Shown: piece after piece, positions 4,267 through 56,683 of the stretch
Layout: every line of letters starts with the position of its first letter
Position numbering within the stretch: the stretch's first letter is position 1
NCBI RefSeq assembly: GCF_014132355.1
Contig: NZ_BLZO01000118.1
Span: 161,001 to 225,000 of the forward strand
DNA from: Okeania sp. KiyG1
Lineage (GTDB): Bacteria; Cyanobacteriota; Cyanobacteriia; Cyanobacteriales; Microcoleaceae
Length of the DNA stretch: 64,000 bases
Reading direction: 5' to 3'
Notes under the pieces: generated by a model
Databases searched by the model: none
Seen by the model: the letters and a program-made list of their open reading frames with translations, nothing else
Told to the model about the DNA's origin: nothing
Position numbers and translations under genes: made by a program

Positions 4267-4899
4267 TTATCTCGTTCCATACAAGCGATCGCCTGCATCT
4301 CCTAATCCTGGAATAATATAACCATGTGCATCTAATTTTTCATCAATAGCAGCAGTGTATAAAGGTATATCTGGGTGATAGTTATGGAAATTTTCAATTC
4401 CCTCTGGTGCTGCCAATAAACACAGAAACCGAATTGACTCTGGGTTAAATTCTTTAATCCGATCAACTGCTGCTATTGCTGAATTTCCAGTTGCCAACAT
4501 TGGGTCAATTATTAACACATCTCGCTGGTCAATATCATGGGGAACTTTGAAATAATATTCTACAGCAACTAAAGTGCTAGGGTCACGATACAAACCAATA
4601 TGTCCCACTCTTGCTGTAGGTATTAGCTCTAAAATTCCATCAAGAAGTCCTTGACCTGCTCGCATAATGGAAACAATCACCATTTTTTTTTCAGCAGCTA
4701 ACATGGGTGCTTCCATCAATTTCATTGGTGTCTGAATTTGTTGATATTTTATTGGTAAATCACGAGTTACTTCATAAGCTAATAACATTCCTATTTCTTT
4801 TAGCAGTTGGCGAAATTGAGCAGTGGTAGTCTCTATTCTGCGTAATAATGTCAATTTATGCTGAACTAATGGATGATTAATGATAGTAGTTTTTGTCAT
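4267..4899 (-). CDS. upp: Uracil phosphoribosyltransferase
   Basis: Converts uracil and PRPP to UMP (pyrimidine salvage; cytoplasm). 210 residues, the usual length. The order is typical: [12 protein letters not shown] at the N-terminus, [19 protein letters not shown], the PRPP-binding loop [15 protein letters not shown] and the uracil-binding C-terminal segment [14 protein letters not shown]. In the common form of the PRPP loop the residue after ATG is Gly; here it is Asn, a mild departure. In the yeast URC uracil-degradation pathway the UPRT step (URC6/FUR1) works with URC1 and URC4; homologues of both lie in this window (6.0-7.2 kb and 21.7-22.9 kb), so this enzyme may feed catabolism as well as salvage. 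Confidence 0.95.
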
Positions 4900-5118
4900 T
4901 TTATAATCTAGTTTTATTCATCAAATATTGTTCGTAACATTATTGTTTAAAAATGTTATAAATTATCATAAAATACAGAGACCTCTAAAACAAATTTAGG
5001 TAGTAATGTACAATAGTAGCGAGGTACATTTTTTTACTTGATTAAATTCTTTAAAAATCAAAATAAAGTATATACTTCACCACATTTAAAATAGTCTAAA
5101 TTACCAAATTTATTAACT

Positions 5119-5246
5119 AGACATCTCCAATAGTCATTTCAGTTATCAGTTATCAGTTGTCAAAAATAAAGTTAATTATCTTACTATATACATTAATTAT
5201 TTCCGCCTACTACTTACCACCTACTTGTTCTTTTCTGGAGATATGT
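5119..5246. repeat. R4 small inverted-repeat element
   Basis: It begins AGACATCTCC and ends near CTGGAGATATGT, an imperfect inverted copy. The interior holds CAGTTAT heptamers. The short ORF inside has no coding character. Other R4 copies: 34854-35002 and 42864-42931. Confidence 0.55.
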
Positions 5247-5324
5247 ACTAAATTAGTTGGCATTACTGAATTAAGGTATCAAAGTAGATTTATAGGGAAC
5301 AGGGAACAGTTAATATTAACAAGT

Positions 5325-5536
5325 AGGGCGTTGCTGAATTGAAGTATGAATGCACGATTTTTTGGTTCTGGTCAAGCCCCCGCGCATCCCCCGTTCAACA
5401 AAAAAGCGCAGCAACATCTGGCTTCCCCCTTTCTAAGGGGGACGGGAGGGGGATCAAGGGGGACTTTTAGAGTTTTATTACCCCCAAATTGGCTTGCTCG
5501 GGTAGCTCTGCATCATACCCAGAATCAGCAACGCCC
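5325..5536. mobile_element. R6 miniature inverted-repeat element, 212 bp, with target duplication
   Basis: Ends are AGGGCGTTGCTGAATT and AATCAGCAACGCCC, an inverted repeat, flanked on both sides by AAGT (5321-5324 and 5537-5540), a 4-bp target-site duplication. The interior is GC-rich spacer text, with no transposase. The ends resemble the R5 family at 50, 53 and 61 kb (AGGGCTTGCTGA), which also duplicate four bases, so both may be mobilised by the same kind of transposase. Confidence 0.75.
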
Positions 5537-5611
5537 AAGTAGTTCAAACAATCTAAAATAAAAATCCAAAATACAGAATTATTAAATCATACCCAGAATC
5601 AACAATGCCAA

Positions 5612-5986
5612 TTAGTTATATACTAATGCTTCCTTTTCTCTAGTAATTTCAATAGTAACTTTGCCACTAAAATCTGGTATTGGAGCTGCTAACTTAGTTA
5701 CACTAACCTTGACATTTTGTACTAATGATTCTTGCAAAATAGCCGTAGCGATCGCATCAGCTACTTTTTCTAACAAAGCAAACTTAGAATTTTTTATAAG
5801 CTTTTGGACAGTATTAATTATGCTGCTGTAATCTACAGTATCTTCCAAAGCATCGCTTTTACTTGCAGCATTCAAATCTAACCCTATAGTTAAATCTACT
5901 TCAAACCATTGTCCCAATATTTTTTCTTCTGGAAAAAAGCCGATGTACCCATAGCAGCGAATTCCAGTAATTGAGATTGAGTCCAT
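5612..5986 (-). CDS. folB: Dihydroneopterin aldolase
   Basis: FolB cleaves 7,8-dihydroneopterin to 6-hydroxymethyl-dihydropterin and glycolaldehyde in tetrahydrofolate biosynthesis. The 124 residues match the family: DSISITGIRCYGYIGFFPEEK at the N-terminus (conserved Gly and Glu of the pterin site), DTVDYSSI, FALLEKVADAIA with the active-site Lys, and VTKLAAPIPDFSGKVTIEI at the C-terminus. It follows the DUF1688 gene by 36 bp on the same strand, so the two are probably co-transcribed. folK, the next pathway step, is encoded divergently 2 kb away. Confidence 0.93.
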   Translation of the reverse strand: MDSISITGIRCYGYIGFFPEEKILGQWFEVDLTIGLDLNAASKSDALEDTVDYSSIINTVQKLIKNSKFALLEKVADAIATAILQESLVQNVKVSVTKLAAPIPDFSGKVTIEITREKEALVYN

Positions 5987-10001: not shown

Positions 10002-10454
10002 ATGGTATTAAATGGAAAAAAAGAGGAAAAATGTCAAACTCTCAAAAATGAATCTAACTCAGAAACTTGGATAATAGGTAAAGAATTTAGATTTGAAGCT
10101 TCCCATCAACTACCTAATCACGATGGGAAATGTGCAAGATTACATGGTCATTCTTGGCGTGGTGTTATTTATATTTCTGGTAATGAATTAGTAAACTCTG
10201 GTGCAAAGCAGGGTATGATTATGGATTATGGAGATATAAAAAAACATCTAAAACCCCTTCTAGATGATTATTTAGACCACTACCACTTAAACGAAACTAC
10301 AGGCTTAGTTAATCCTACCAGTGAAGCGATCGCTAAATGGATTTATGAACAATTAGAACATAAAATTCCCGGACTTGTAGCAGTTAGAATTGATGAAACT
10401 TGTACGAGTCAATGTATTTATTCAAAAGGGAAAGGTAATTTTATTTATCTTTGA
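10002..10454 (+). CDS. queD: 6-carboxytetrahydropterin synthase / PTPS-family enzyme
   Basis: QueD converts dihydroneopterin triphosphate to 6-carboxy-tetrahydropterin in queuosine synthesis; the wider PTPS family also makes 6-pyruvoyl-tetrahydropterin. 150 residues. Zinc ligands are His35 (FEASHQL) and His48/His50 (LHGH); GKCARLHGH supplies the catalytic Cys44 in the spacing usual for QueD, and GMIMDYGDIK, LNPTSEAIAKW-like NPTSEAIAKW and RIDETCTSQCIY complete the fold. The first 20 residues are extra and lysine-rich, so translation could start later, but no better start is evident. With folB, folK and an SDR nearby it belongs to a pterin gene neighbourhood; a role in cyanobacterial tetrahydropterin synthesis cannot be excluded. 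Confidence 0.85.
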   Translation: MVLNGKKEEKCQTLKNESNSETWIIGKEFRFEASHQLPNHDGKCARLHGHSWRGVIYISGNELVNSGAKQGMIMDYGDIKKHLKPLLDDYLDHYHLNETTGLVNPTSEAIAKWIYEQLEHKIPGLVAVRIDETCTSQCIYSKGKGNFIYL

Positions 10455-11048
10455 GGGAGTAGGGAGTAGGGAGTAGGGGGAATTTTTAAAGGTTCTATGT
10501 TTTTTATTAACTAGCTCCTAGTTAGATAATTAAACTTAATAATTACGACCTAACTCGTGAATTATTTCTTCCTCAAGAAAATTAGGATTATTAATACAAC
10601 AATATATAGAGATTTATATCAGGTCTCATTAATTAGACGTAATAAAAATTATCTTCATCAATTATCTTGAGAATTTATCAAATTTTCTCCTACTCTGTAG
10701 GGACGTTACATGCAACGTCCCTACCCCCTACTCCCTAATAATGTTATTTGTGGGTATTTAAAGAGACATGATATTAGTTCTATGAAGAAAATGATAGGAA
10801 TTATGAGAGGGGGACCCGCATTATTCTCAAATTTGATTACAGCAAGAATTTAACTTCTGACTTCTAACTTCTGACTTCTGACTTCAGCTAGTTTGGTATT
10901 TAGAATAGGACTTACGCAGTAAAACCTATTTTCGTCATTATTCTCAAATTTGATTACAGTAAGAATTTAACTTCTGACTTCTAACTTCTGACTTCTGACT
11001 TCAACTATATCAGGTATACTAAAAAGTTAAAGTTTAGGGAATTAAAAA
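10455..11048. repeat. Spacer of tandem heptamers and palindromes
   Basis: It contains GGGAGTA repeats, the palindrome GTAGGGACGTTACATGC/AACGTCCCTAC near 10695, a lone R2 left end (TAGGACTTACGCAG, about 10910) and two copies of an about 60-bp block ending in CTTCTGACTTC repeats (about 10835-10885 and 10938-11003). No gene seen. Confidence 0.6.
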
Positions 11049-11713: not shown

Positions 11714-12382
11714 TTACTGATTCCACTTAACTGTTATATATTTTATTTCGCATTCATTATACCCAATCAAATTAGCCTTGACCTGATTTTTTTCCCATTG
11801 TATACCCCTGACGTGATACTTGTAGTAATTTCCATATTCTATCTGAGCTATCTCTATAGCTTTAGCTCCAGTATCTCCTCTGAGTATGAACTGTAAAAAA
11901 AACACTAATATCAGTGTATATAAAATGCCCAAAATAAATGCCAGTTTTGGTGGAGATACTGAACGTTTTGGCCTAACTTTTTTACCAATTACAGATATAT
12001 TTCTTAGTTTGATGTAAACCCAGAATGCAACAAAACCAGTTACTATTTCAACTAGAAGCGGAATAAAAAAACTAACTGGCAAGAGGCGAATTTGAGCCAA
12101 CCAAACTTCTTTTGTCATTAGCTCTAAAGGAAGTAATATGAATAACCAGCTAATAAAGCGAGAGAGCAAAAATGCTGCAACCCATCTAACTTCCTGCACA
12201 GGTTTTCGGTTTCCACAAAAGAGTAATACTCCTCCAATTACAGCCAAAGTGTTCAAAATAGATGAGTAGGATGAATTGCTCTGAGTTTGTACTCTTAGAT
12301 AGAGTATACATACAGTATTAAAAATGCTTGCTAAAATCAGAACAATACCTACCTGTCTGAAAATTACACGATTATTTTTCAT
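11714..12382 (-). CDS. Membrane protein of unknown function
   Basis: 222 residues with five probable transmembrane helices (about 9-29, 42-57, 67-86, 104-125 and 147-166) and a C-terminal soluble domain of about 55 residues (IEIAQIEYGNYYKYHVRG onward) likely exposed at one membrane face. No family motif recognised. It lies downstream of the REC-AlbA gene on the same strand but is separated by about 100 bp containing CAGTTAT tandem repeats, so membership of the same operon is uncertain. Confidence 0.6.
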   Translation of the reverse strand: MKNNRVIFRQVGIVLILASIFNTVCILYLRVQTQSNSSYSSILNTLAVIGGVLLFCGNRKPVQEVRWVAAFLLSRFISWLFILLPLELMTKEVWLAQIRLLPVSFFIPLLVEIVTGFVAFWVYIKLRNISVIGKKVRPKRSVSPPKLAFILGILYTLILVFFLQFILRGDTGAKAIEIAQIEYGNYYKYHVRGIQWEKNQVKANLIGYNECEIKYITVKWNQ

Positions 12383-12413: not shown

Positions 12414-12460
12414 TTTCAGTTATCAGTTATCAGTTATCAGTTATCAGTTATCAGTTGTGA
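12414..12460. repeat. Tandem CAGTTAT heptamers
   Basis: Several back-to-back copies of CAGTTAT, the short tandemly repeated repetitive sequence typical of filamentous cyanobacteria. Further arrays of the same unit occur near 5139, 23690, 37950 and 57147. Confidence 0.8.
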
Positions 12461-12479
12461 TAATGAATAATAATTTATT

Positions 12480-13546
12480 TCATCTAATTTCGGAAAAATG
12501 GTCGTAAATTTCAGGAATATCTAATTTTTTGTAGTATTTCCTGCTCGAATATAAAATTCCAAACCTTTGTCGGTTTTGAGGAATGCCTTTTTGAACGCTC
12601 TTTTAACATCAACAATACAAATTTCCTTTGTTTCTAATTTTTCAAAACGAATTTTGATGTATTTGTTGATGAAATTAGAACCTATATACTGAGAAATTAG
12701 ATTAATTAATGTTTGTTGAAATTTGTCTAAAGTTTTCTTGGATAGTAAAGAAATATCTTTTTCTAAACCGAAGATATTACCATTATCTTCAACTCCTATT
12801 AATAATGTTCCTCCTTGGGAGTTGAGAAAAGCAACTATTGTTTTTAAAGCAGCAAATTTTAACTTTTCATCCTTACAATTTCCTTTAACACTCCATTGTA
12901 AAGTGCTTTTAAATTCTAAAGTATCGCTTTCCCCTTGTTTAATCAATTCATCTACAGGTTTGAACTCGCCTATTTTACGAATAGTGGTTAAAAATCTTCT
13001 TAATTTTCGTTCCTCAATTTTTTGATTAAGTTCTTCTTCTGTATCTGCTGCTTCTATAACTGTTTGGTTAATAACTGCAATATATTCTCCCCAATATTGC
13101 TCTTCTAAGTATTCTTTATTTTCTTCAATCCATTGGTCATTTTTAACATTACCCCAACGGTTAAAATAAGTCATTGCCTCTTTAATAGACTCATCTAAAA
13201 TTTCAAAAACATTGCCTTTCATATTCTTGGAAATATAATCCCAAGCTCCTTTTTTAAAAGCTGTACGACAGTCAGTAACGGTATCATTTGCTGTTAAGAT
13301 AATCACAATAGAAGATTGAGCTTGGTCTAGGACAGCAAAACCACTATCATGTGTTTCCATCCGCATATCAGCAATAATAACATCAAAAGGATTTAAAGGA
13401 TTTTGTAGTTTTTCTGTTGCTTCTTTAGCATTAATTGCTGTTTCAATATTTTGATAACCAAACTCTTCTTTTAACCACTCTATTAATTCTTCGAGATAAT
13501 TCGTATTATCCTCAACTAATAGTAAATGAACATTCTTTATTTCCAT
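12480..13546 (-). CDS. Response regulator with C-terminal AlbA_2 (Schlafen-like) domain
   Basis: Residues 1-120 form a receiver domain: acidic pocket Glu12-Asp13 (LLLVEDN), phospho-acceptor Asp60 (VIIADMR), Thr85 (ILTAND) and Lys107. Residues 135-190 are a charged linker containing WGEYIAVINQTVIEAADTEEE, resembling DUF5678. From about 200 comes an AlbA_2 domain: GESDTLEFKSTLQW with Glu211-Phe-Lys, LKTIVAFLNSQGGTLLIGVEDNG, and FYIRAGNTTK. In the given frame a stop falls at 12521; one more A in the run at 12525-12530 would continue as LDIPEIYDHFSEI to a stop at 12480, which fits the usual end of AlbA_2 domains. The histidine kinase gene ends 33 bp upstream, so this is its likely phosphorelay partner, acting on nucleic acid or a nucleic-acid machine. 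Confidence 0.82.
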
Positions 13547-13579
13547 AGTTAATCTTGTGATATTTTGATTTAATTTTGA

Positions 13580-16500
13580 CTAGCGATCGCTATAAGGAAT
13601 ATACATTTGAAATCTTACACCATTTTCTCCTGTTTCTTGAATATGACCATCCATTTCAGTTAGGGTTCTACGAATAATATATAATCCTAAACCACTGCCT
13701 TGACCTTTTTTGGAAGTAGTAGTTAAGGGTTGAAATATCCATTCTTTTCTATCTTCACGAATACCTTTTCCATTGTCAGAAAATTCGATTAATAAATACT
13801 TTTTTTCTCCTGGCATTGTGAAACCTCTAATACCTTCAGGATTAGTAACATCTTGAGATTTCATTTTGATAATTAAATGTTGTTGGTATGAATTATGTTT
13901 CAGAGAATTTTCGACCATTTCATTTAAAGCACTTTTTATCTTTTCCTCATCTCCATAAAATTCTGAATCTCTGTTAGTAATTTCTAATTGAATTTCTGCA
14001 TTTTCAATTTTATTATTATCTTCCCACTTTTCAAAGATTGTTTGAACTGGAAAGTGTTTATATTTAATATTTATCCCTTCGTTTATTGCCTTCAAATCGT
14101 TCAGAGCATCTTGAGTTAATTCTAATTGAGTTAAAAGTTTTTCAAACTGGGAATAACTTTTAGATTCACTGTCAACTTTACGCATTGCCCGACGAGTTTT
14201 TGACTCAATAAGTGCTAATTCATTATTTACAAAGTCAGAAATATCATGGGCAGTTTGAGAAATAACAGATAAAATTTCTCGGTAGTTATCTTCGGGAATT
14301 TGGTCTACTTTATCTTGTTGTATTTCTCGGCGATCGGCAATTTTTCAACTAAGTTTTCCAGCTTTTCAATAATGTTATTTAAAATCGAATTTTCGTCTTG
14401 ATAGTTTCTTAAAATGCGATAGGCAATACTTTTGAGAATGCCAATTTCGTTATCAATTTTATGATACATTGCTCTGTTGAGCATTTGAGTATCTTTTAAC
14501 TTAGTTTCGGAGTTATTTCTCTTAAAGTATTCTTCTGAGTCTAAGTTAAGATTTAATATTTTTAAAGCATCAGCATAATGAGGCGAGTCTTGAGCAATTT
14601 CGTCTAGCTTTTCTATAGCTTTTTTGTGATAAGGATTATTAGCTAAAATACTTCTAGCAGTGTAGAGTAAAGTTTTGTCTTGTTCATCAGAATTATCAAT
14701 GGCTTCGTCAAAATATTGATGACCTATTTTTGGTTGTTTAATGGAGTAATATAATCTTCCTAGTATTAGTCGAATTACATTTGCACGGTATTGTAATAAA
14801 TCATTTAAATTAATTTTTTCTAGTTGTTCAATTGCTTGTTGATATTGACCTAATTCTTCTAGTGCTGTTGCATATTTGTATCGTACATAGTTATCATCTT
14901 TTAGCTTTAATGATTTCTCAAAAAACTGACAAGATTCGTCAAACTTGCCTAGTACCATTAAAGCAATAGCATAGCTAGTAAGAGTTTTCACATTATCAGC
15001 TTCCAATTTTAGAGCTTTTTCAAAATAAGGTAAGGATTCTTCTGTTTTCTCTAATTTCACTAAAGCACTAGCGTAGTAATTAATAGTTATAATATCATCA
15101 GGTTCTAGCTCTAGAGATTTTTCAAAATAAGGTAAAGAATCTTCTACTCTTTCTAACTTCATTAAAGCACTAGCGTAACTACCAACATTTATAACATCAT
15201 TAGGTTTCAGTTTTAGAGCTTTTTCAAACCAGGGTAGAGAATCTTCCACTCTTTCTAATTTTATTAAAGCATTAGCATAGCTGCCAATAGTTATAACATC
15301 ATTAGGTTCTAGTTGTAGAGATTTTTCAAAATGAGATAAAGAATCTTCTGTTTTTTCTAATCTGATTAAAGCATTAGCGTAATTATTAACAGTTTTAGTA
15401 TTATCAGGTTCTAGTTGTAGAGCTTTTTCAAATAAAGGTAAAGAATCTTCAACTTTACCTGATTTTACTAACGCATTTGCATACTTGCTAAGAAAATCAA
15501 CATTATTAGGCTTAAGTTTTAGAGCTTGTTCAAAAAAAAGTAATGACTCTTCGATTTTTCCCAATTTAAACTTGATTAGAGCATTAATATAGCTAATAGT
15601 AAAATTAACATCATTAGGTCTAACTTTTATATCTTTTTCAATCAGAGATAGGAATTCTTCTGTTTTCCCTACCTCTATAAAAGCATTTGCATAGTTAGTT
15701 ATGAAATCAAGATTGTTAGGCTTAAGTTGTAAAGCTTGTTCTACATACAGCAAAGATTCTTCTATTTTTTCTACTTTTATCAAGGCATCCGCATACCTGC
15801 TTATAAAATTGACATTATTAGGCTTAAGCTGTAAAGCTTTTTTAAATAAGGTAAAGACTCTTCGATTTTTCTGACTTTATTAACGCATTTGCATAGTTAA
15901 AAATAGCATCAATATTATCAGGATCTAGTTTTAGAGCTTGTTCAAACCAAAGTAAGGATTCTTGGGTTTTTCCTGATTTTATCAAATAATTGGCATAGCC
16001 AATAATCCCTTGTAGAGATATTCTGAAAAAAGGAAAAGATTCTACAGTTTTACCTGATTTCATTAAGGCATTAGCATAACTACTAATAGTTATAACATTA
16101 TCAGGTTCGAGTTTTAGAGATTTTTCAAATAAGGGTAAAGATGCTTCTACTCTTTCTAATTTCATTAAAGCACTAGCGTAGTAATTAATAGTTAAAACAT
16201 TATCAGGTTCCAGTTGTAGAGATTTTTCAAATAAAGGTAAAGATGCTTCTACTTTTTCTAATTTCATTAAAGCATTAGCATAATTATTAACAGTTATAAC
16301 ATTATTAGGTTTTAGTCGTAGAGCTTGTTCAAACAAAGGTAAAGAATCTTCAATTTTACCTGATTTTGTCAACGTATTTGCATAATTAATAATGAAGTCA
16401 ATATTATTAGATTTAAGTTGTAAAGCTTGTTTTAAATAAGATAAAGACTCTTCAATTTTGCCTGATTTTACTAACGCATTTGCATACCTATTAATCAAAT

Positions 16501-17975
16501 CAGTATTATTAGGTTTCAGTCGTAGAGCTTTTTCAAATAAAGGTAAAGAATCTTCAACTTTACCTGATTTTACTAACGCATTTGCATACTTGCTAAGAAA
16601 ATCAACATTATTAGGCTTAAGCTTTAGAGCTTGTTCAAAAAAAAGTAATGACTCTTCGATTTTTCCCAATTTAAACTTGATTAGAGCATTAATATAGCTA
16701 ATAGTAAAATTAACATCATTAGGTCTAACTTTTATATCTTTTTCAATCAGAGATAGGAATTCTTCTGTTTTCCCTACCTCTATAAAAGCATTTGCATAGT
16801 TAGTTATGAAATCAAGATTGTTAGGCTTAAGTTGTAAAGCTTGTTCTACATACAGCAAAGATTCTTCTATTTTTTCTACTTTTATCAAGGCATCCGCATA
16901 CCTGCTTATAAAATTGACATTATTAGGCTTAAGCTGTAAAGCTTTTTTAAATAAGGTAAAGACTCTTCGATTTTTTCTAACTTTATTAACGCATTTGCAT
17001 AGTTAAAAATAGCATCAATATTATCAGGATCTAGTTTTAGAGCTTGTTCAAACCAAAGTAATGATTCTTGGGTTTTTCCTGATTTTATCAAATAATTGGC
17101 ATAGCCAATAATCCCTTGTAGAGATATTATGAAAAAAGGAAAAGATTCTACAGTTTTACCTGATTTCATTAAAGCATTAGCATAATTACTAATAGTTATA
17201 ACATTATCAGGTTCGAGTTTTAGAGATTTTTCCAATAAAGGTAAAGATTCTTTTACTCTTTCTAACTTAATTAAAGCACTAGCGTAGTAATTAATAGTTA
17301 GAACATTATCAGCTTCCAGTTGTATAACTTTATCAAAAAAGGGAAAGACTCTTCCAATCTATCTAATTTAATTAAAGCATTAGCATAGCTAGTAATAGCT
17401 TTAACATTATTAGGCTCAATTTCTAGAGTTTTTTCAAATAAAGGTAAGGATTTTTCTATCTTACCTGACTTTATTAAAGCATTAGCATATTTATTGATAG
17501 CTTTAACATTATTCGGTTTTAATTGCGTTGCTTTTTCAAACCAAGGTAAAGAATCTTCGACTTTACCCAACTTCACTAAAGCATTACCATAGCAAATAAT
17601 AGCTACAACATTATCAGATTCAAATGCTAGAACATTTTTAGCAAAAGGTAATGCTTCTTCCGCCCTATTTAATTTCGTTAAAGCATTAGCATAACCACAA
17701 ATATTGTTAATAAAATTAGATTTAAGCCCTACAATTTTTTCCCAACTACCCAAAGAAACATCAACTTTACCCACTGCCAGAAAACCAATACCACAACCAA
17801 CAAAACTCATCACAATATCAAACTCAAACTCCAAAATTTCTTCCCATAAATCCAATGCTTCTTCAAACTTATCCTCCTCCATTAAAGCATCAGCATCCCT
17901 ACTCATTAGCTCCAAACTATTCAGAATATTTCCTTCAGTAATTAAACTGTTAATTTTATCCCTAGACATAATCAA
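13580..17975 (-). pseudogene. Giant TPR-sensor histidine kinase, split by frameshifts
   Basis: One reading unit of about 4.4 kb. It starts MSRDKINSLITEGNILN and runs through roughly thirty 34-residue TPR units of the form NYANALIKSGKIEESLPLFEKALQLKPNN, then a helical region with SQTAHDISDFVNNELALIESK (a candidate H-box), and a HATPase domain (N-box LNEMVENSLKHN, G1 FSDNGKGI, G2 GQGSGLGLYIIRR). Five frame breaks separate the pieces, at A/T runs near 14341, 15838, 15866, 16943 and 17335; in each, one added base restores the TPR or kinase frame. The kinase piece has no start codon of its own before an in-frame stop, which supports fusion to the TPR array. Cytoplasmic, no membrane segment. It lies between the P-loop ATPase and the REC-AlbA gene. 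The TPRs probably sense a protein partner. Confidence 0.82.
15440..17195. repeat. Near-identical intragenic duplication in the TPR array, period about 1.1 kb
   Basis: The stretch at about 15440-16090 recurs almost unchanged at about 16545-17195; a shared landmark, ACCTGATTTTACTAACGCA, lies at 15457 and 16562. The offset is 1105 bp, becoming 1106 after a T-run difference. The encoded segments both contain VEKIEESLLYVEQALQLKPN and VRPNDVNFTISYINAL. This points to recent unequal recombination between TPR units. Confidence 0.85.
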
Positions 17976-18118
17976 ATATCTCCTTAAAAAACAATATCAG
18001 ACTTTTTCCAAACCATTTTTAAATGCCACCCGATCGCTGCTAACTAATAACCACCTCAAGACAACTCCCTTCCCTTAATCTTTGACAAAACTCAGAAAGA
18101 GAAAATAATTATTTGATT

Positions 18119-19588
18119 TTAACTGTTTAACTTCCGACGTTTAATACCACCTTTGCGTTGAACTTCAAAACCATATCTATAAATATCAGGCATATTAATT
18201 CGCCGATCTAAGCGACGAATTTCCACAATGCCTAATTCTTCTAAGTATTTTAAAATTTCTTGAGGTTTCCTAGAAGGAGGTTCTTGATGCCATTTTGTAT
18301 TTTCTAGTATCTTCAGAAAATTTTCTTCCTCAGTTAGAAGATTGAGATTTTTAAGACCTATTTTAAGAGCTTCTAACCAGGGATATTCTTCCAGCGTAAG
18401 TTCTTCTATTCGATCTTTAGAAGTACCCATTAAAGCTACTTGTAAATCAGAAGGTTCTAATAAGCGATTTTCTGGTAAATCCTTTTCCTCAAATTTTTTC
18501 AATCTACGTTCTGCTGCTAAAGAGAATAACTTTAAAAAAGAACGAGGAACAATTCTCCTTTTAGCATCTTGAAGGTGATTAGGAATCCATTTATAAGTGT
18601 AACTTTCTTGAGCATTATCTCCCATCCATTCCCCAACTATTTTTTCCATTAATAATTCAAAACAAGACTCATCTAATGCTGGCAATATACCCAATATTTC
18701 ATCCTTTTTTGAAATTAAACCAGGAACTATTTGTAAATAATCATTCATTTCTTCTCCAGAGTTAGCCAAACGCTTCACAAATACCTGATATAACCATGAA
18801 GTTTCCCACTCTAAACTAACTTGATATCCTCTGAATTTAGAAGCATCTGGAAATCCTAAAAAATCTTGTCGAAATAAATCTGTGCGTAGAAATATTTTGG
18901 GTCTAATTCGTTCCCAACGACGCCATCTATCTAGCCAAAATGCTAATAGTTCAGCGATAGGAGCGGCAAGTTCTAAATAAGAAAGAACAATTCGATCTAG
19001 CTCATCATAAGTGATAAATAACCAGCGAACGCTTGCCAATAATTCCTCATCTAATTTATCCAAAGCATAGTTGATACTTTCAAAGTTCTCCTGAACATCT
19101 GGAAACCAGTCGGAAAGGAATAATAAATTGTTATTTAAACTATTACGAGCTTCCTCTGGTATTTCCTCAACCCAACTATGACTTGATAATTCTTTTTCTT
19201 CCTGAAATATTACTCTTAATATCAATCCGATCCAAAAAATCCGCCAATCAATTCTATCCCTATATTTCATGTACTTTTCTGCGATATATGGTGCAGGAAA
19301 TTTTCTTTCTCCAGTCTTACTACGACCAGATCCAGCAATCCATATTGTTGTTTCTAAAGGGGGTAAACCTCTAACATTTAAATTTTTTACTAAAGCTTGG
19401 CGACCAGAATAATTTGCTAATAAACGAAAAAATTCTGTTTTACCAGCACCTCTGTCACCTAATATTAAAAGTGTGTCAACTTCCAAAGCCATTCGGTAGC
19501 TAGGTAAGGGTAAAAAATTTTTGAGGAATATATTTTCATCATTACTTTCATGTTCCGCTACACCTCTTCCTGCTGCAACATTAGCCAT
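18119..19588 (-). CDS. P-loop NTPase, STAND/KAP-like, of a cyanobacterial conflict-type family
   Basis: 489 residues. Walker A is LLILGDRGAGKTEFF (residues 44-51) and a Walker B-like WLFITYDELDR occurs near residue 195; the later part (RIRPKIFLRTDLFRQDFL, PRSFLKLFSLAAERR) resembles the sensor and winged-helix region of KAP/ORC-type ATPases, and the C-terminal 70 residues (ILKYLEELGIVEIRRLDRRIN) look like a winged helix. It may belong with cyanobacterial Sll1717-like ATPases, but I cannot confirm that. Only 43 bp separate it from the KGGVGR ATPase upstream, so the two are probably translated from one message and may work as a pair. The TPR kinase follows 143 bp downstream. Soluble, apparently intact. 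Confidence 0.75.
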   Translation of the reverse strand: MANVAAGRGVAEHESNDENIFLKNFLPLPSYRMALEVDTLLILGDRGAGKTEFFRLLANYSGRQALVKNLNVRGLPPLETTIWIAGSGRSKTGERKFPAPYIAEKYMKYRDRIDWRIFWIGLILRVIFQEEKELSSHSWVEEIPEEARNSLNNNLLFLSDWFPDVQENFESINYALDKLDEELLASVRWLFITYDELDRIVLSYLELAAPIAELLAFWLDRWRRWERIRPKIFLRTDLFRQDFLGFPDASKFRGYQVSLEWETSWLYQVFVKRLANSGEEMNDYLQIVPGLISKKDEILGILPALDESCFELLMEKIVGEWMGDNAQESYTYKWIPNHLQDAKRRIVPRSFLKLFSLAAERRLKKFEEKDLPENRLLEPSDLQVALMGTSKDRIEELTLEEYPWLEALKIGLKNLNLLTEEENFLKILENTKWHQEPPSRKPQEILKYLEELGIVEIRRLDRRINMPDIYRYGFEVQRKGGIKRRKLNS

Positions 19589-19631
19589 AATTTCTAATAG
19601 CTTTTTTTATTAAAATTAGTCATTTTTATAC

Positions 19632-20996
19632 CTAATTTTCTTTATTCAATTTACGCTGAAAAATACTGCAAAGTCTTTCTGCAAGTTGTTGATAAGGTTT
19701 ACCTGTTAAAACATCAATAAGATATGACAAACGACTATCTTCCTCCGGAGTAGAATCTCGCTTAAATAAACTTATTTCTCTACGCAACTCACTTTGCCAA
19801 TCTATAATTATTGGATAAAAACTAGCTTCTCGATCATCCGATTTAGGAACATCTTCCCTATAGTAATGCTCTTTAAAAACAATGTAAGCTTTCTCTCGAA
19901 AAGCTCCAAGTTCCTGTTCTGACCATTTTACATCTAATCCCGGAGCTAAAGCATGGATGAGTAATACTGGCAGCGGTTTAGAAGCTAAAGGTTTTGCTAG
20001 ACGACGAATAACATGAGTTAAACCGTTCCAACTTTGACGAGATTGAGTGCCAAAAATGACTGCTGCATGGGATAAGTCAGCGATCGCCAACCCACCAATA
20101 TCGTGAAATCCTGTTCTAGTATCCAGCAAAATAAAGTCTAGTTTTCTTGCTGCTGCATTCAGTTCTTTAAACATATCATGCCATGTTTTTAACAGTGGGT
20201 TATTGAAATCGAGTAAATTCTGGCAATCAAGTCTTGCCAACTTTTCCAGATAGTTATTATCTACATTTCCTGCAGTCAGTATAGGCAAACTTTTTTCTAC
20301 ATCTCCTAACAATATTGGATCGTTAACTAATTGCAAATGAGTGCTGAGTTTCCAATTTTTACCTTGGATATTTTTCTCTAACAAATAATCGATCGCCCCT
20401 GGAAAACTCTCCTCTGTATCTGGAAAAAAAATAGTTGATATACCAGGAGATTCTAAATCTAAATCAACTATAGCTACTCGATAACCGTGACGAGCTAATG
20501 TCAGAGCAGTTGCTACTAATGTTGTGGTGCGACCAACTCCACCTTTGAAGGAAAAAAATGAAACTATTGCTGGTTTATAACCTTTATCTACTACTTCCTG
20601 AGACCAAGGAAGCTCAACTTCTTTTTGATTTGTCCATGCTTGTTTAGCAACATGACGCTCTAACACATACCAACAAGGTTGACTTTCATCATCCCATTCT
20701 GCGATAACTCTTTCTTCCCGGATGACATCTATCAATTTTTTATAACCATCTTTTTCCCCTTGTGGTAACCAAATATCTTTACCGTAGTAGGGACCGAGTT
20801 TGCGATCGAGAGATTTTTCCAGATCGTCTAGGATATCCTTTTCCAGATTGCTATTTTCCAGAGGTTCCAAGAAAAGCCGAATTTTTCCCTTAACATCCCG
20901 AATGATAGTTATTGATTCTAGTTCGTCTTTTATGGAAGATTCCTCAAAACATTCTTGTACTTTGTCAAATGTTTCACCGAAAGTTATATCAATCAT
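19632..20996 (-). CDS. KGGVGR-motif variant ParA/MinD-like ATPase
   Basis: 454 residues. The N-terminal 140 residues are an unassigned domain (FGETFDKVQECFEESSIKDE onward, with a conserved WYVLERHVAKQAW). The ATPase core begins at VSFFSFKGGVGRTTTLVATA, a deviant Walker A at residues 151-158 in which Arg replaces the usual Lys of KGGVGKTT; Walker A-prime is VAIVDLDLESPGIST and Walker B is DFILLDTRTGFHDIGG. Such variant ATPases are soluble dimerising switches often found in regulated NTPase modules of cyanobacteria rather than in plasmid partitioning. No parB or parS-like array is visible. First gene of a minus-strand run with the P-loop NTPase, TPR kinase and REC-AlbA genes. Confidence 0.85.
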   Translation of the reverse strand: MIDITFGETFDKVQECFEESSIKDELESITIIRDVKGKIRLFLEPLENSNLEKDILDDLEKSLDRKLGPYYGKDIWLPQGEKDGYKKLIDVIREERVIAEWDDESQPCWYVLERHVAKQAWTNQKEVELPWSQEVVDKGYKPAIVSFFSFKGGVGRTTTLVATALTLARHGYRVAIVDLDLESPGISTIFFPDTEESFPGAIDYLLEKNIQGKNWKLSTHLQLVNDPILLGDVEKSLPILTAGNVDNNYLEKLARLDCQNLLDFNNPLLKTWHDMFKELNAAARKLDFILLDTRTGFHDIGGLAIADLSHAAVIFGTQSRQSWNGLTHVIRRLAKPLASKPLPVLLIHALAPGLDVKWSEQELGAFREKAYIVFKEHYYREDVPKSDDREASFYPIIIDWQSELRREISLFKRDSTPEEDSRLSYLIDVLTGKPYQQLAERLCSIFQRKLNKEN

Positions 20997-21116: not shown

Positions 21117-21659
21117 TCATAAATGCACTTCATAACTGTGGGAATTGCTTATAGATATCCTACCATCCAAAATTAGTCTGGGAATAATTTCGTTATAGAT
21201 TTCCGCTGCTCGTTCAACTGCTTCTGTTGCCTGCTTTTCATTCCACAAACCAGACCTAAAATAACGTCGCTGTGGATGATAGTCAGTTAAAACAGTTCCG
21301 TTTGTCCGGGAAATTGACAGTTGAGAATCAAGAATAGGATAAATTATCCGCAACCTTTCAATACTTTGACCTTCAAGTTCTGTTAAATTGTGACCGAATT
21401 TTTGACAATCTTTATTGTCAATACATTGCTCTACTAGAACTTTGAAAGTACATTCTACCACATAACCCGCCAAATAAACTGCATTATCCCAACGATGTCG
21501 AGCGAGCAAAACTTCCGCATCATGTAAATGTCTTCCCGCAGCTTGGATAAATCAGGACTTACGCAGACACTCTACATATAGTGAGGGCGAATACCATTCG
21601 CCCCTACAGATGGTGTTTTAAATGTCAATTTGCGTAAGTCCTGTAAATGATTCTTCCAT
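21117..21659 (-). pseudogene. HEPN-domain protein, 5-prime end interrupted by an R2 element
   Basis: Reading on the minus strand from ATG at 21659, the first codons encode MEESF; the 91-bp R2 element (21553-21643) then intervenes. Without the element and one copy of its 5-bp target duplication, the frame continues without interruption as MEESFIQAAGRHLHDAEV, LLARHRWDNAVYLAGYVVEC and on to the stop at 21117. This is a HEPN fold: RWDNAVYLAGYVVECTFKVL is the signature helix, with a later helix RAAEIYNEIIPRLI. A clear catalytic R-x4-6-H motif is not seen, so nuclease activity is doubtful. A remnant could be translated from TTG at 21509. The intact gene would start 3 bp after the urc1 stop. HEPN proteins often act as toxins or accessory subunits. 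Confidence 0.85.
21553..21643. mobile_element. R2 miniature element (91 bp) inserted in the HEPN gene
   Basis: CAGGACTTACGCA and TGCGTAAGTCCTG are perfect inverted ends. TAAAT is duplicated on both sides (21548-21552, 21644-21648). The interior contains GGGCGAATACCATTCGCCCC, a self-complementary core shared with other spacer repeats. No transposase is encoded, so movement in trans is implied. Confidence 0.9.
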
Positions 21660-29234: not shown

Positions 29235-29533
29235 ATATCATGTCCGGTTAAACAGTGATAAATAAATAACTACGGAGTCCTCAGGAGTCAACCCACCCCT
29301 CGCCCCTCCCCTCCCAACCCACCCTAACCCATCCCAGGAGGGGAGGGGAAGAAAGAAGAACAACTGGAGTTGAAGGAGAAAGTTTTTTTATAACTACAGG
29401 ACTTACGCAGAGACACTAAATCCAGTGAGGGCGCAATTCGGAGCTTTGCGTTAGCAAATGCCATTCGCCCCTACAGATGGTGGTTTAACAGTCAATTTGC
29501 GTAAGTCCTGAACTAATTATCCGGACATGATAT
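29235..29533. mobile_element. R1 element carrying a nested R2 element
   Basis: The outer ends are ATATCATGTCCGGTTAAAC and ATCCGGACATGATAT. Inside, an R2 element occupies 29397-29510 with AACTA duplicated on both sides (29392-29396, 29511-29515). The R2 copy therefore arrived after the R1 copy. Confidence 0.88.
29397..29510. mobile_element. Nested R2 element, 114 bp, with 5-bp target duplication
   Basis: CAGGACTTACGCA and TGCGTAAGTCCTG ends; 5-bp duplication AACTA. The interior contains GCCATTCGCCCCTACAGATG, shared with the copy in the HEPN gene. Confidence 0.9.
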
Positions 29534-29617: not shown

Positions 29618-30822
29618 TTACTTTTGATGTGCCAAACCAATTGCTTCAGAAATAGAATTTAATCCTCTTTCATCTAACTTTTGCAATAATCCTTGGAGAA
29701 TTTGTTTAACCATTCCCGGTCCTTGATAGACCCATCCTGTGTAAATTTGAATTAGACTTGCCCCCGCAGTAATTTTATCCCAAGCATCTTCTACAGTAAA
29801 TATACCACCTACACCAATAATTGGTAATTTTCCTTGAGTTTCTTGCCAGATAAATTTAATTATTTCCGTCGATCTTTGAGTTAATGGCGCGCCACTAATT
29901 CCACCTGCTTCTTCACTGACAAGTCTACCAGTTTTAGCAATAATTTTAGTTTTTAATCCATCACGAGAAATAGTTGTATTAGTGGCAATAATTCCAGAAA
30001 TTTGATATTGTTGAATTAGGTCTAGTATGGAAGCGATCGCTTCCTTTTCTAAATCTGGTGCAATCTTAACTAAAATTGGCTTAATGCCTTGATTTTCTCC
30101 TTGTAAATCTGCTAAAATGTTACTTAAATTTTCAGCATTTTGGAGGGAACGTAGCCCCGGAGTATTAGGAGAAGAAACATTGACGACAAAATAATCACCC
30201 CAATTTTTTAACAATCTAAAACTACCTAAATAATCGGTTGCTGCGGCCTCTAAAGATGTTATCTTGGATTTACCAATATTTATACCATAAGGAAAAAATT
30301 ACGATTAAAATAATAATTATTCTCCCGTATGCTGAGAGTATCTGGAATATTTTTTCCTTGAGATTGTAATCTCATAGCTAAAGCAGCAGCACCTTGATTA
30401 TTAAATCCCATTCTATTCAAAGCAGCTCGATCTATTGGCAAACGAAATAATCTTGGTTGAGGATTTCCCGGTTGTTCATGAAGAGTAACTGTACCAAGTT
30501 CAGCAAACCCAAAACCTAATTGAGGCAAGGCATTAATGGCCACACCATCTTTATCAAATCCTGCAGCTAAACCCACAGGATTTTTAAAGTTTAATCCCCA
30601 TAAAGTTTGTTCTAGGCGAGTATCCTCAAAACATAAAGATTGTTGCATCATTGTCTGCAACCCATTTATTAGTTTACTAGAGGAATTAGTATCCATAAAA
30701 CTGAGAATATTTAGGACTTGATGATGTACCCATTCTGGATCGGATTTTAATACAGAAAATAGAGTCGGAAATATGACAGAACGATAAATATTTAACACTT
30801 TATTCTCAATGGTAGTTGACAA
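29618..30822 (-). pseudogene. pyrD: Dihydroorotate dehydrogenase (quinone), frameshifted
   Basis: Class 2 PyrD oxidises dihydroorotate to orotate on the membrane with quinone as acceptor, FMN-dependent. The N-terminal part has the membrane-associating helices, [34 protein letters not shown] and NRMGFNNQG. It stops soon after 30297; the C-terminal part continues in another frame as [38 protein letters not shown] and [17 protein letters not shown]. One extra A in the run at 30293-30298 joins them. Between PDT and GINIGKSK lie about 17 residues ([16 protein letters not shown]) that are not usual in the family, so a small in-frame insertion may also be present. Essential pathway, hence a sequencing error is plausible. 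Confidence 0.88.
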
Positions 30823-31710: not shown

Positions 31711-34700
31711 ATGTTCAAAAAAAATGAATCAGGAAAAAATCATAATAATCTGATTGCTTTAGAAAGCATAATTAGAGCAATTAGAGAAGAAGAAGATTTA
31801 GATATCCTCATTAAAAAAGTCATCAATTATCTCCAGTCAGAATTTGATTGTTGTTTGATTTGGGTATGTTTTTACGATCGATTAGCAAATAAAATAGTAG
31901 GCAAAGGAGGAATTACTCCCAATGGTGAAATTTCTGCTCTCAAACAAAAATTTACAATAAATCATGGAGATATATTAGAACAAGTATTACTGGAAAAAAA
32001 AGCAATTAAAGTTGCTGACTTAAGGGCAGAAAAGCAAGTTGGGGAATGGGTGAAAATAGCACAAACTTATCAGATTAAAGGTACAATTTTCTTTCCTATA
32101 CATGACAAAGAAAAATGTTTTGGTATTGCCTTAATGGGTTCACAAGAGTGGGGAAGCTCTTTAGAGTCAGCAGAAAAAGCACTACTATCTTTAATTTGGG
32201 GCGAACTAGGGCAAACATTACAAAAAATAGAAAAAGAATGGCAACAGCAACAAGCAAAACGACCTGATGAACCAATACTCTCACTGCTATCTCAATTAGG
32301 AAAATTAACAACCCTAGACCGACGCCTCGAAACAGTTGCAGAAATAACTCATAAATTTTTACAGCCATCCCGCACAAATATTTACTGGTATTATCCCAAT
32401 GGACGCTATTTTTGGCGTCGTGCGAGTAATCATCAAGTAATAGTAGAATGGAGCGACTTTAAACGTCCTGCTTCTGGCATTACATTGCAAGACTTAGGTG
32501 AATTCTATAATGTGCTATTAACTGGACAAATTATTTGCATCGGAGAATATCACACTTCTGTAGACAGCGATATTACTCGCAGACTTACCAGACAAATTAG
32601 AGCTACTTCCGTATTAGCAGCACCAATTATCTTAGAAGACGAACTATTAGGATTTATTGCCGTAGAAGAACAACACAACCGTCCATGGCAAGATGATGAA
32701 AAAAACTATTTGCAAGGAGTAGGTCAACTGCTAGCTTTAACTTCTCCCCTCTCAGAAATGGAGGATAAAATTCGTCAAGCTAAATTAGACCAAACCTTAA
32801 CAGCAGGGATAACTCGTGCTATTTACGGTGATGATGATTGGCAAAAAACCCTAAAAACAACAGCAGAAAAAATATCTCAGCGCTTAGGTACTAAATATTT
32901 TATGTTGGCTATCTGCAACAGAGGACAGTTTGAAGTTGTTTATCAAAATCGTTCTACCCTAAGTCGAACAGTCAAAACTTCTCTACCCCCCCCCTCAGCA
33001 AGAAAGATATGACCTTGTTAGGCCGAAATACTGAAGTAGTAGGCATTGAAAATTGGTCAGAAAGTAATATATTGGGTGCTTGGCAGGAAAATTTTGAGAA
33101 ACTAGGAGTACGTTCTCTTCTGTTGTGCAACACAATAGGAACTGGGCAACAGGAACAAGAAGAATTTATTACAAAAAAATCAAGGCGATCGGTACAACCA
33201 ACCTGAAGGACTCGTAATTATTGGCGATGAAATCCCTCGCACCTGGAGTCGCAATGAACGAGAATTAGTACAAATTGTTAGTCAGCAGTTAGGTTTTCTC
33301 CTGCATCAAAAACATATTAATCAGATAATCAACAAGCAGCAGCAATATACGCAATATCTTCAGTCTGGTTTAACTACTTTACAACCAACGACAATACCCA
33401 CAAATTCAACAAAAATATCGATCGATTCTTCCAACTCCTTATTATTACAAGAAGTGAAAAATTTGGAACCAGTGGGAGAACAGAGTGTATTAGGAAATTT
33501 ATCACTGGACCATCTCGAACGAAATTTTCTCGAATTTATTGCTCAAGCAATTGTGGGAATAGCAGAGATAAACCTGCAAACTGTTCCCCTAGTTGGTTTA
33601 ATTACCTGGTATCCAGTATCACAAACAGGTAGAGTTATGAGCTACAGTTATCTTGAGTCTCATATTACTAGCACTGACAAAATTTCGATACCAGTTCGCA
33701 CTGATTCTTGGATTAAACAAATAATTTCCACAAATGGTTGGTTGCATCTGAGCGTGAGTGATGTACCAGCAAAAACTCTACGGTGGCTCAATATTCTTCA
33801 TAGCGGTCAGGTCATTGCAACTGCTTTGCGTACTGCTGTTGAACATCAGCCAACTGGTATATTATTACTTGCAGACCCTCACAAAGTTTTATGGCAAAAA
33901 ACAGAAGTGCCACAACCACAAAATTCTCCTACTGAAACTCTGAAAAATTTATTGACTCATTTGGTTTCTCAGTTTGCATGGTCGCGTCGCTATTTGATAG
34001 TCAAGACTACTTTGGAATCTCAGCGAGAGGAACTAGAGTGGTTGAATTGGTATAAACAAAGGCGTTTAGAAGAACTTTACCGTACTGTTGGTTCTGGTTT
34101 TAAACAGTTAAGTGAATTGAATTATACTCCATCAGAAAATCCAGCCCAACAGAAAAATGTGTTGACAAATCTACGTTATCAGCAATTACTACGGCAAATT
34201 GGGAATGTTTTATCATCTACTACTTCATTATTGAAGCAAGAAAAATGGCGTTTACAAGCAAATTTTGATGTTGTATCTGTAGCTAATTTGTTGAGGCGAT
34301 CGCTCATTCGTATTGATTCCCAAGTTAAGAAAAGACAACTGCAATTAGAAGTTCATCGGGAAGGAAATTTGAATATTTATGGAGATAGTATTAAATTAGA
34401 ATTAGTTGTTTACGAGCTTTTGATTAGTGCCTGTCGTCGTTCTCAAACAAGAGGAAAAATCGAGATTAAATGCCAAACTTTAGATGAAGAATGGTTAGAA
34501 ATTTTTATCCTTGATACAGGTAAGATTAGCTCAAAATTAATAACAGAATTTAACTCCACTTCTATCCCAGATGTATTAGAACCTTCTCCATTAGTTTCGC
34601 CTCCAGGCAAGCATTTAATTATCTGTAGGCGAGTAATTCAACAAATGGGAGGAGAACTGGAGTTAAATTTACAAGAAAGTGGTTTAGTTGAAAGTAGGTT

Positions 34701-34725
34701 ACTTTTACCCTTAGCTCACCTTTGA
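31711..34725 (+). pseudogene. Multi-GAF sensor with degenerate histidine-kinase end, two frame breaks
   Basis: A soluble product of about 1000 residues. Residues 1-165 and about 190-345 are GAF domains (CCLIWVCFYDRLANKIVG; TSVLAAPIILEDELLGFIAVEE), a third GAF-like segment follows (LGTKYFMLAICNRGQFEVVY), then long helices and a C-terminal region resembling a HATPase with weak N and G boxes (LELVVYELLISACRRS, GKHLIICRRVIQQMGGELEL). A C9 run at 32986-32994 shifts the frame into TLLGRNTEVVGIENWSES; an A7 run at 33173-33179, read as six, restores GDRYNQPEGLVIIGDEIPR onward to 34725. No clear phospho-acceptor His is visible, so it may be an ATP-binding sensor rather than an active kinase. Confidence 0.72.
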
Positions 34726-56400: not shown

Positions 56401-56683
56401 ATTATTTTGCATTTTCTACTATCAACATCGCCAAAAATATAGCCGTTCAGAAGCATTTAAAAAAGCACAAAATCAACTTCGTTATTTAACAGGAACTCAG
56501 CTTAGTAATTATAGAAAGCAGCTAGAAGGATATCTAGAACAATACATGAAACACGAAAATTCAGAAAAAATACAACAAAAAAAAGAACTCTTATCATGGT
56601 TTTGTCAACAGAGTCTTCCATTTACTCATCCTTACTACTGGGCAGGTTTTATTTCCCAAGGTATTTCAACAATTAATAATTAA
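53403..56683 (+). pseudogene. TPR-CHAT caspase-like protease, one frameshift
   Basis: About 1093 residues. The N-terminal domain (RIQTYINLIQELLNSPTERA, ELLDKGLLQTIIMMAQ) is the kind usually heading cyanobacterial CHAT proteins. Long TPR-like repeats follow (SNLGNAYLNR, NIEQAIEIYQPALKVI). A missing T at 54524-54525 breaks the frame after INREN; the other frame continues NFPQQWANIQKNLGNAYLNR to the end. The CHAT domain lies in the last 330 residues: LQVLHSSHTSQVNI near 56140 supplies the catalytic His and DVFLSSCEINLNQT near 56275 the Cys; GARHVISSLWLVED follows. CHAT proteases cleave partners on activation, as in the gRAMP-bound Craspase, but no CRISPR genes are here. It is probably an immunity or regulated-death protease. 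Confidence 0.85.

Follow-up and report, generated by a model that had tools for sequence, protein, structure and literature searches.

Which of the closely spaced minus-strand genes in one part of the Okeania sp. KiyG1 genome belong together, and what does the response regulator among them control? The genes lie in a stretch of 64,000 nucleotides (contig NZ_BLZO01000118.1, positions 161,001 to 225,000; hereafter the window, in whose own numbering all positions are given) and are transcribed in the order HEPN, KGGVGR-type ATPase, P-loop NTPase, tetratricopeptide repeat (TPR) histidine kinase, a response regulator with receiver (REC), DUF5678 and AlbA_2 domains, and a membrane-type protein (Table 1). 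An earlier note, made from the letters of the DNA, had grouped the four genes from ATPase to regulator into one candidate module. Its account of the individual genes was largely accurate: the gene gaps are 43, 143 and 33 bp, and the KGGVGR ATPase (NF047398, E 8.9e-52), the GDRGAGKT NTPase (NF047389, Sll1717 family, 6.5e-28) and a response regulator with an AlbA_2 output and the E-x4-EFK motif (Pfam Response_reg 1.3e-14, SLFN_AlbA_2 (PF04326) 8.5e-21, DUF5678 2.1e-6) are all present. The HEPN gene directly upstream of the ATPase had been overlooked, and the giant kinase with about thirty TPRs exists as coding sequence for TPRs and a HATPase_c domain, but in five open reading frames (ORFs) and not a single one. 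The row is two independent units side by side and not one four-gene module: unit 1 comprises HEPN, the KGGVGR ParA-type ATPase and the P-loop NTPase, and unit 2 the TPR histidine kinase and the REC-DUF5678-AlbA_2 regulator. With modest confidence, we read the locus as two conflict-type units with a common insertion site, of which unit 2 is a two-component system with a ribonuclease (RNase)-type output, probably for conflict or abortive defence.

Two units at one variable site

The genomes and loci compared are cited by G and L numbers, G000 being the genome of the window. Within the DNA examined, none of 18 unit 1 loci, 11 of them with a strong match to the PADLOC profile PDC-M28C and 7 with the ATPase and NTPase fused, carries the kinase core or the REC-AlbA regulator. 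Likewise, PDC-M28 genes stand beside the kinase and regulator in one of the 41 core loci of unit 2 (L107, from Okeania SIO3B5, G001), in addition to the window, and in G286 both families occur in one genome but 3.1 Mb apart, the regulator being shortened and without a kinase. The M28 profiles met in PADLOC cover A, B and C but neither the kinase nor REC-AlbA; the accession following M28C is PDC-M29A.

Comparison of the chromosomal site itself leads in the same direction. The site is flanked by genes for an SDR, a 6-PTPS-like protein and a 200-aa protein on one side, and for RibA and an NMT1-like protein on the other. Both units lie between these flanks in the window; in G001, whose contig stops short of the other flank, both are found on the RibA/NMT1 side. 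G002 and G005 carry unit 1 only at this site and G011 carries unit 1 with a RibA remnant, while G017 has unit 2 only, again with a RibA remnant. In G003 a TPR-type match stands beside RibA at the contig end and in G004 the contig begins too near the NMT1-like gene; unit content was not judged for either. Since relatives hold one unit or the other at the same place, the adjacency appears to be a local matter at a variable site. A single module of all four genes, or five with HEPN, would account for the common strand and the short gaps in the window and in G001. It would also suit the NTPase frame of G001 (L039:4406-6388), which runs in frame into TPRs just upstream of a run of N; a local NTPase-TPR-kinase fusion is possible in Okeania SIO3B5, and this is a caveat to the independence of the units. 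The four-gene candidate was nevertheless rejected on the lack of co-occurrence (0/18 and 1/41), which the note itself had named as a refuting outcome, and on the same-site separation in G002, G005 and G017, and we regard it as very improbable.

As judged by the A, B and C profiles, unit 1 is a stand-alone, conflict-type cassette already catalogued by PADLOC as the phage defence candidate PDC-M28. The ATPase matches PDC-M28B at 1.3e-60 and the NTPase, 43 bp away, PDC-M28C at 7.3e-69, the latter having no Pfam match at E 0.01. The HEPN gene of the window reaches 2.5e-4 with PDC-M28A, and intact homologues reach 9.1e-12 (G001) and 1.7e-13, with Pfam HEPN (PF05168) at 2.9e-6 and 4.4e-6. The RNase motif of HEPN domains is R-x4-6-H; inspection of alignment A5 (14 sequences) by eye revealed no invariant copy of it. 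PDC-M28C is matched at E 1e-10 in 35 of 386 cyanobacterial genomes and strongly (1.6e-60 or better, the window's genome included) in 11. HEPN lies upstream in 10 of the 11 strong-type loci, L079 ending before that position, and BLAST detected it in 5 of the 7 fused loci; L088 is a shortened PDC-M28 copy without the ATPase. A description of PDC-M28 was not found in the literature, here and below the open-licence papers in PMC. Of the set that the note proposed as undescribed, the ATPase-NTPase pair is, together with HEPN, already catalogued. A second KGGVGR ATPase/Sll1717-type NTPase locus was observed in the window's genome (G000:C131:45151-46402, L002), where overlapping frames suggest another frame break.

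Linkage and distribution of the kinase-regulator pair

A scan with two short peptide patterns across one genome per species (84,980 species) returned 133 relatives, the best 80 of which were used; 41 loci (L107-L147) were taken as core members and L148-L186 as generic receivers. The kinase gene lies directly upstream of the regulator gene in 39 of the 41 core loci, and these are all the loci in which the arrangement can be tested, as L144 and L147 start at a contig edge. The view that the kinase and the REC-AlbA protein belong together is thereby upheld. An intact pair is that of Lyngbya sp. CCAP 1446/10 (L114:1098-4700 and 4707-5765). Ten of the 41 loci span less than 12 kb of DNA, so that distant neighbours could be missed there. 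The carriers are Cyanobacteria, Thiotrichales-type giants (Thiomargarita, Parabeggiatoa, Thioploca), one bin labelled Dichelobacter, Anaerolineales and Desulfobacterota.

Within the Cyanobacteria the distribution is very patchy. Of 60 genomes, 6 were found to encode the full REC-AlbA protein, among them that of the window. A REC-AlbA match at 1e-20 occurs in 11 of 386 genomes, 5 of which represent the family (G000, G020 and G030, a fragment in G044 and a shortened copy in G286) and 6 share the AlbA domain alone. The kinase core was detected at 1e-35 in 5 of 373 genomes, with the regulator adjacent in four (cut short in G044) and absent from that position in G274, where an orphan TPR kinase of the family (1006 aa, L192:5583-8603) was observed. 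The G044 copy (L044:8017-12804) is damaged, its TPR kinase being split by other ORFs and the REC match ending after residue 67; splits were also seen in L134 and L145. REC-AlbA was not found in IMG/VR viral contigs or PLSDB plasmids, where 10 plasmid and 2 viral-contig matches cover the AlbA domain only, and PHROGs gave no match specific to the kinase-regulator pair. PDC-M28 is not a fixed neighbour of unit 2, and inspection by eye showed no other defence genes in a fixed position beside it.

Two further loci may be recorded here. In the Anaerolineales genome HSG24, a PD-T4-4_A-like ATPase (4.3e-52) and a free receiver (L146:8396-9799 and 10308-10769) stand beside the kinase and a regulator with a Toprim output. 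A spirochaete bin (L148:8383-10582) encodes a distant kinase of 539 aa with a 196-aa receiver. This receiver obtains a good score with the receiver profile of the family but is too short to include an AlbA or Toprim part; the locus is possibly a distant relative of unit 2.

The sensor kinase

The kinase has the conserved histidine and the HATPase_c domain (Pfam 3.5e-18 in the window) of a two-component sensor. Over 14957-17693, Tandem Repeats Finder reported arrays with a 102-bp (34-codon) unit as well as a 306-bp period, which add up to about 27 units of 34 codons. Intact homologues measure 961 aa (G020), 1042 aa (G017), 1124 aa (G058) and 1200 aa (G030), and complete kinase ORFs in the core loci range from 339 to 1200 aa, L145 being split. 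Residue tallies and the kinase tree cover 37 of the 41 core loci (L127, L144, L145 and L147 being left aside). A first histidine (YHKI..N) is kept in all 37 aligned kinases and a second (TAHDI) in 36 of them, for which reason the first may be the phosphate site. The TPR part is less conserved than the kinase core (40 vs 75 per cent in L109, 41 vs 66 in L114), as expected for a diversifying sensor.

The putative effector domains of the regulator

The receiver was aligned (A3) for the window and 30 of the 36 core loci with an AlbA_2-type regulator (without L113, L120, L121, L123, L134 and L139). The acidic pair, phospho-acceptor Asp, Thr and Lys typical of receivers are represented: D57, T86 and K108 are present in 31 of 31 sequences and D13 in 30, with one gap. 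When all 36 loci were counted, the REC aspartate was found in the 35 that hold the position, L134 being split. The acidic catalytic positions of the AlbA_2 domain, on which the note's idea of a nucleic-acid-directed effector depends, are kept: the first Glu in 36 of the 36 loci and the second Glu and the Asp in 34 each, corresponding to E206, E211 and D254 in the window. In rat SLFN13, the sections available of PMC5862951 describe an RNase triad E205/E210/D248 whose mutation stops or lowers cleavage. The regulator positions appear, from a numbering match counted by hand, to be the same triad.

Profile A7, built from 12 regulators and 4 other proteins, has solved Schlafen structures as its top matches (SLFN11 3.3e-9; 5yd0 8.8e-9), with the ESxxxEFK and GV(E/D)D positions aligned; in SLFN11 it matches the second lobe well and the first lobe weakly. 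AlbA relatives outside the regulators sit on GmrSD and Eco57I/N6-methylase proteins, that is, in restriction-type company. An AlphaFold model of the REC-AlbA homologue from G001 has a predicted local distance difference test (pLDDT) score of 88.7. Its Foldseek and VIA-align searches were filled by receivers and response regulators such as PorX, with no Schlafen among the 50 matches listed by each. Lists so filled by receiver domains say nothing against Schlafen or Toprim folds, and the effector assignments rest on sequence profiles. A nucleic-acid-directed effector of conflict type, as suggested in the note, is plausible; the ATPase-NTPase pair has dropped out of the system.

In 5 of the 41 core loci (L142, L143, L144, L146 and L147) AlbA_2 is absent and REC-DUF5678 is followed by another domain with invariant EGxTD and DxD motifs. 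In alignment A4 of these regulators E217, D221, D282 and D284 are invariant in 5/5, and a later Glu is also kept. In the PADLOC scan, which covered all of these loci but L144, the RT-Toprim profile matches L147 (1.4e-10), L146 (1.7e-6) and L142 (3e-4); NCBIfam retron Ec67 (NF038237) matches four of the five at 2.5e-9 to 3e-4, and profile comparison of the Toprim part with PDB gave the Retron Ec67 structure at 0.0021. HSG24 combines three Toprim copies (L143, L146, L147) with one AlbA copy (L133). The kinase tree, drawn to count effector exchanges, is weak, with long branches and 3 Toprim rows only. The presence of two unrelated RNase-type domains on one REC-DUF5678 switch argues that the output is catalysis on nucleic acid.

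State of the copy in the window

The five kinase ORFs run over 17298-17975, 16906-17235, 15842-16888, 14305-15783 and 13580-14185. By eye, the breaks resemble the lack of single bases, for the most part within homopolymers, and the REC-AlbA frame stops about 11 aa before the point at which its relatives end. Of 20 G001 ORFs outside the region, 7 show frame-changing gaps in the window (10 gaps over 22.7 kb), mostly single bases in homopolymers. Conserved window genes with mostly one-base gaps of this kind include 29621-30798, 31711-34725, 35289-37464 and 53381-56683. In the reverse comparison 6 of 24 ORFs were affected, four of which correspond in position to genes already counted, and the contrast supporting assembly error is to that extent not clean. 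The completeness of the window's genome is 92, vs 96-99 for five genomes of the genus. Given the gaps in other conserved genes and the lower completeness, assembly error is the likelier source, and the breaks in the kinase probably arose in this way. Real decay of unit 2 into a pseudogene would agree with five ORFs in place of one, with the cut regulator end and with damaged copies elsewhere (G044 split and truncated, G286 shortened, L134 and L145 split). Since frame-changing gaps also affect other conserved genes of the window and the kinase and regulator motifs are otherwise kept, we judge decay to be unlikely.

The HEPN gene is, in addition, interrupted near its start by a 91-bp miniature inverted-repeat transposable element (MITE); the G001 copy is intact. 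The pattern of its ends, CAGGACTTACGCA / TGCGTAAGTCCTG, fits 52 genomic places, vs 0 for the pattern read backwards. Another pair of CAGGACTTACGCA-type ends spans 29397-29510.

Downstream of the regulator, the 222-aa membrane-type protein accompanies unit 2 in 2 of the 41 core loci, both Okeania copies, and is probably not a core part of it. A perfect tandem repeat of the 7-bp unit TCAGTTA (5.9 copies, 12416-12456) lies between these two genes.

Table 1 Positions of the features of both units and their neighbours in the window
Feature	Positions	Strand	Basis
Unit 2 putative effector, response regulator REC-DUF5678-AlbA_2	12521..13546	-	Pfam, alignment A1, residue tallies, AlphaFold model of homologue, SLFN profile match
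REC domain	~13214-13522	-	within 12521..13546
Predicted phospho-acceptor Asp codon of REC	13367-13369	-	within 12521..13546
AlbA_2 domain	~12527-12931	-	within 12521..13546
Glu codons of AlbA_2	12929-12931 and 12914-12916	-	within 12521..13546
Asp codon of AlbA_2	12785-12787	-	within 12521..13546
Unit 2 putative sensor, TPR-repeat histidine kinase gene, five ORFs	13580..17975	-	intact homologues in G017, G058, G020, G030
First His codon of kinase (YHKI)	14461-14463	-	
Second His codon of kinase (TAHDI, between two ORFs)	14246-14248	-	
HATPase_c of kinase	in 13580-14185	-	
Unit 1 P-loop NTPase, Sll1717 family, PDC-M28C; Walker A GDRGAGKTE, Walker B-like LFITYDELDR	18119..19588	-	PADLOC, NF047389, alignment A6
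Unit 1 KGGVGR variant ParA/MinD-type ATPase, PDC-M28B	19632..20996	-	PADLOC, NF047398
Unit 1 HEPN gene, PDC-M28A, upstream of ATPase; 5' part split off by MITE	21117..21509	-	PADLOC, intact homologues, alignment A5
MITE, 91 bp, CAGGACTTACGCA / TGCGTAAGTCCTG inverted ends, inside 5' part of HEPN gene	21553..21643	.	
222-aa protein after REC-AlbA, membrane-type by eye (no prediction run)	11714..12382	-	

Proposed mechanism and alternatives

If unit 2 works as a two-component system with an RNase-type output, the fast-changing TPR array of the kinase would bind some protein cue, upon which the kinase would autophosphorylate and hand the phosphate on to the aspartate in the REC domain of the partner regulator. 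Activation of REC would then pair or free the C-terminal effector, mostly AlbA_2 with the SLFN13-type E/E/D triad and in other loci a Retron-Eco2-like Toprim domain; a receiver dimer could supply two AlbA lobes. The effector would cleave RNA, possibly tRNA, and stop growth, most likely as abortive defence. The patchy spread, the occurrence in several phyla, the less conserved TPR part and the restriction-type kin of the AlbA domain were counted in favour of a conflict role. In a bolder version, unit 2 would be the first member to be recognised of a class of phosphorelay-driven abortive immunity, in which the TPRs sense an invader protein, REC-DUF5678 fires exchangeable RNases, the REC dimer builds a Schlafen-like clamp and, in Okeania, the PDC-M28 NTPase is possibly wired in, as hinted by the in-frame NTPase-TPR joint of G001. 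We offer this version tentatively and think it rather doubtful as a whole.

Several observations weigh against an RNase-type conflict system. A long TPR array is not universal, two complete kinases being short (L119, 339 aa; L133, 371 aa). Among the regulators, two of the three triad residues are gone in L139 and one in L109, and L140, a 289-aa sequence, is without the DUF5678 stretch. The regulator has, by Pfam and in the model, a single AlbA_2 stretch and not the two lobes per chain of Schlafens, so that a pairing of lobes must be assumed. AlbA_2 is also part of regulators to which no nuclease function is ascribed. As to the Toprim regulators, the profile matches are modest and fall far short of the cut-off that NF038237 sets for full-length proteins, and L143, though aligned with the other four, gave neither an RT-Toprim nor an Ec67 match. 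By our own reading of the alignment, the Ser of the Eco2 metal-B site is not kept. The Toprim regulator model is middling (pLDDT 75), and Foldseek returned structures of receivers and other signalling proteins, with no Toprim entry among the 50 matches listed. The Toprim-partnered kinases are not one clade, in a part of the tree that is weak. Finally, the defence role is argued from company and patchiness, and no phosphotransfer, nuclease or phage test of the REC-AlbA family was found in the literature.

Response regulators mostly act on transcription, and domains of the AlbA type are binders of nucleic acids. The pair could accordingly regulate gene expression or translation in the manner of an ordinary two-component system, through a nucleic-acid-binding, non-catalytic AlbA_2 output; the departures of L139 and L109 from the triad would conform to this. 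Retention of the triad in 36, 34 and 34 of 36 loci speaks against such an output, as does the Toprim nuclease-type domain that the same chassis carries elsewhere, a pure binder being unlikely to be exchanged for a nuclease; this alternative is, in our estimation, improbable. A catalytic output could still serve the physiology of the cell, as a phosphorelay-gated RNase acting in stress, starvation or programmed death in filaments and not in phage defence. Filamentous cyanobacteria and giant sulfur bacteria account for many of the carriers, and that neither PDC-M28 nor, on inspection by eye, another defence system is a fixed neighbour is in keeping with such a role. The very patchy distribution (11 of 386 genomes, of which only 5 carry the family) points away from it, together with the spread over several phyla, the two effector types and the restriction-type AlbA kin, and we accord a purely physiological role a low probability.

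Two-component systems, which belong to the commonest signalling devices of bacteria, mostly act through transcription factors or nucleotide enzymes. If an RNase-type conflict role is correct, a multi-phylum kinase-regulator pair with a defence-type RNase of one or the other of two unrelated folds would tie two-component signalling to cell-suicide effectors, and it becomes a testable question whether a histidine kinase can act as a phage sensor. The comparison also replaces a four-gene module by two separate systems at one variable site.

Relation to known systems

Unit 1 consists of the same three families as PADLOC PDC-M28 (HEPN, KGGVGR ParA and Sll1717-type NTPase) in the order of other cyanobacterial loci; B and C are fused in some relatives but separate genes in the window, where HEPN is also cut by the MITE. 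A dyad of HEPN (MAE_18760 family) and ParA/Soj ATPase genes is postulated, in the portion available of PMC3710099, to be a toxin-antitoxin system. HEPN likewise adjoins a ParA-type ATPase in unit 1, which adds the NTPase as a third gene and whose HEPN matched PF05168.

The unit 2 regulator shares the AlbA_2 family and the E/E/D positions with the Schlafen RNases SLFN13 and SLFN11. SLFN13 has two AlbA lobes, whereas the regulator has one, coupled to a receiver and a partner kinase. The Toprim domain of Retron-Eco2 (Ec67) is, according to the accessible part of PMC12405507, an RNase needed for phage defence. Its E, D, DxD and later E recur in the regulators of Anaerolineales and a Desulfonema bin, which are receiver-controlled and without a reverse transcriptase domain; the window carries AlbA_2 and not Toprim. 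PorX, as described in the accessible text of PMC12839542, joins REC to a PglZ phosphodiesterase directed at oligonucleotides, PglZ being common to BREX defence. PorX, among the best Foldseek matches, and the unit 2 regulator are both response regulators with an enzymatic, oligonucleotide-directed output, putative in unit 2; the effector families differ, as the window regulator has AlbA_2 and no PglZ match at E 0.01. The same text describes a Schlafen RNase fused to a minimal histidine kinase and a wHTH near BREX loci. A Schlafen domain is thus linked with a histidine-kinase-type ATPase in both cases, within one protein in a defence setting there and through a separate TPR kinase and a REC-bearing effector here. 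In the vWA-MoxR conflict systems of multicellular bacteria (PMC7159879, as far as the available portion extends), receiver domains occur sporadically among exchangeable effectors and no histidine kinase domains are reported; receivers are common to these systems and unit 2, but the core genes differ.

A description of a REC-AlbA/Schlafen regulator was not recognised in the literature, which, at open-licence scope, is weak evidence of novelty. The parts of unit 2 are of known kinds, and their combination, a two-component system with an RNase-type, exchangeable output, is apparently new, at least to us.

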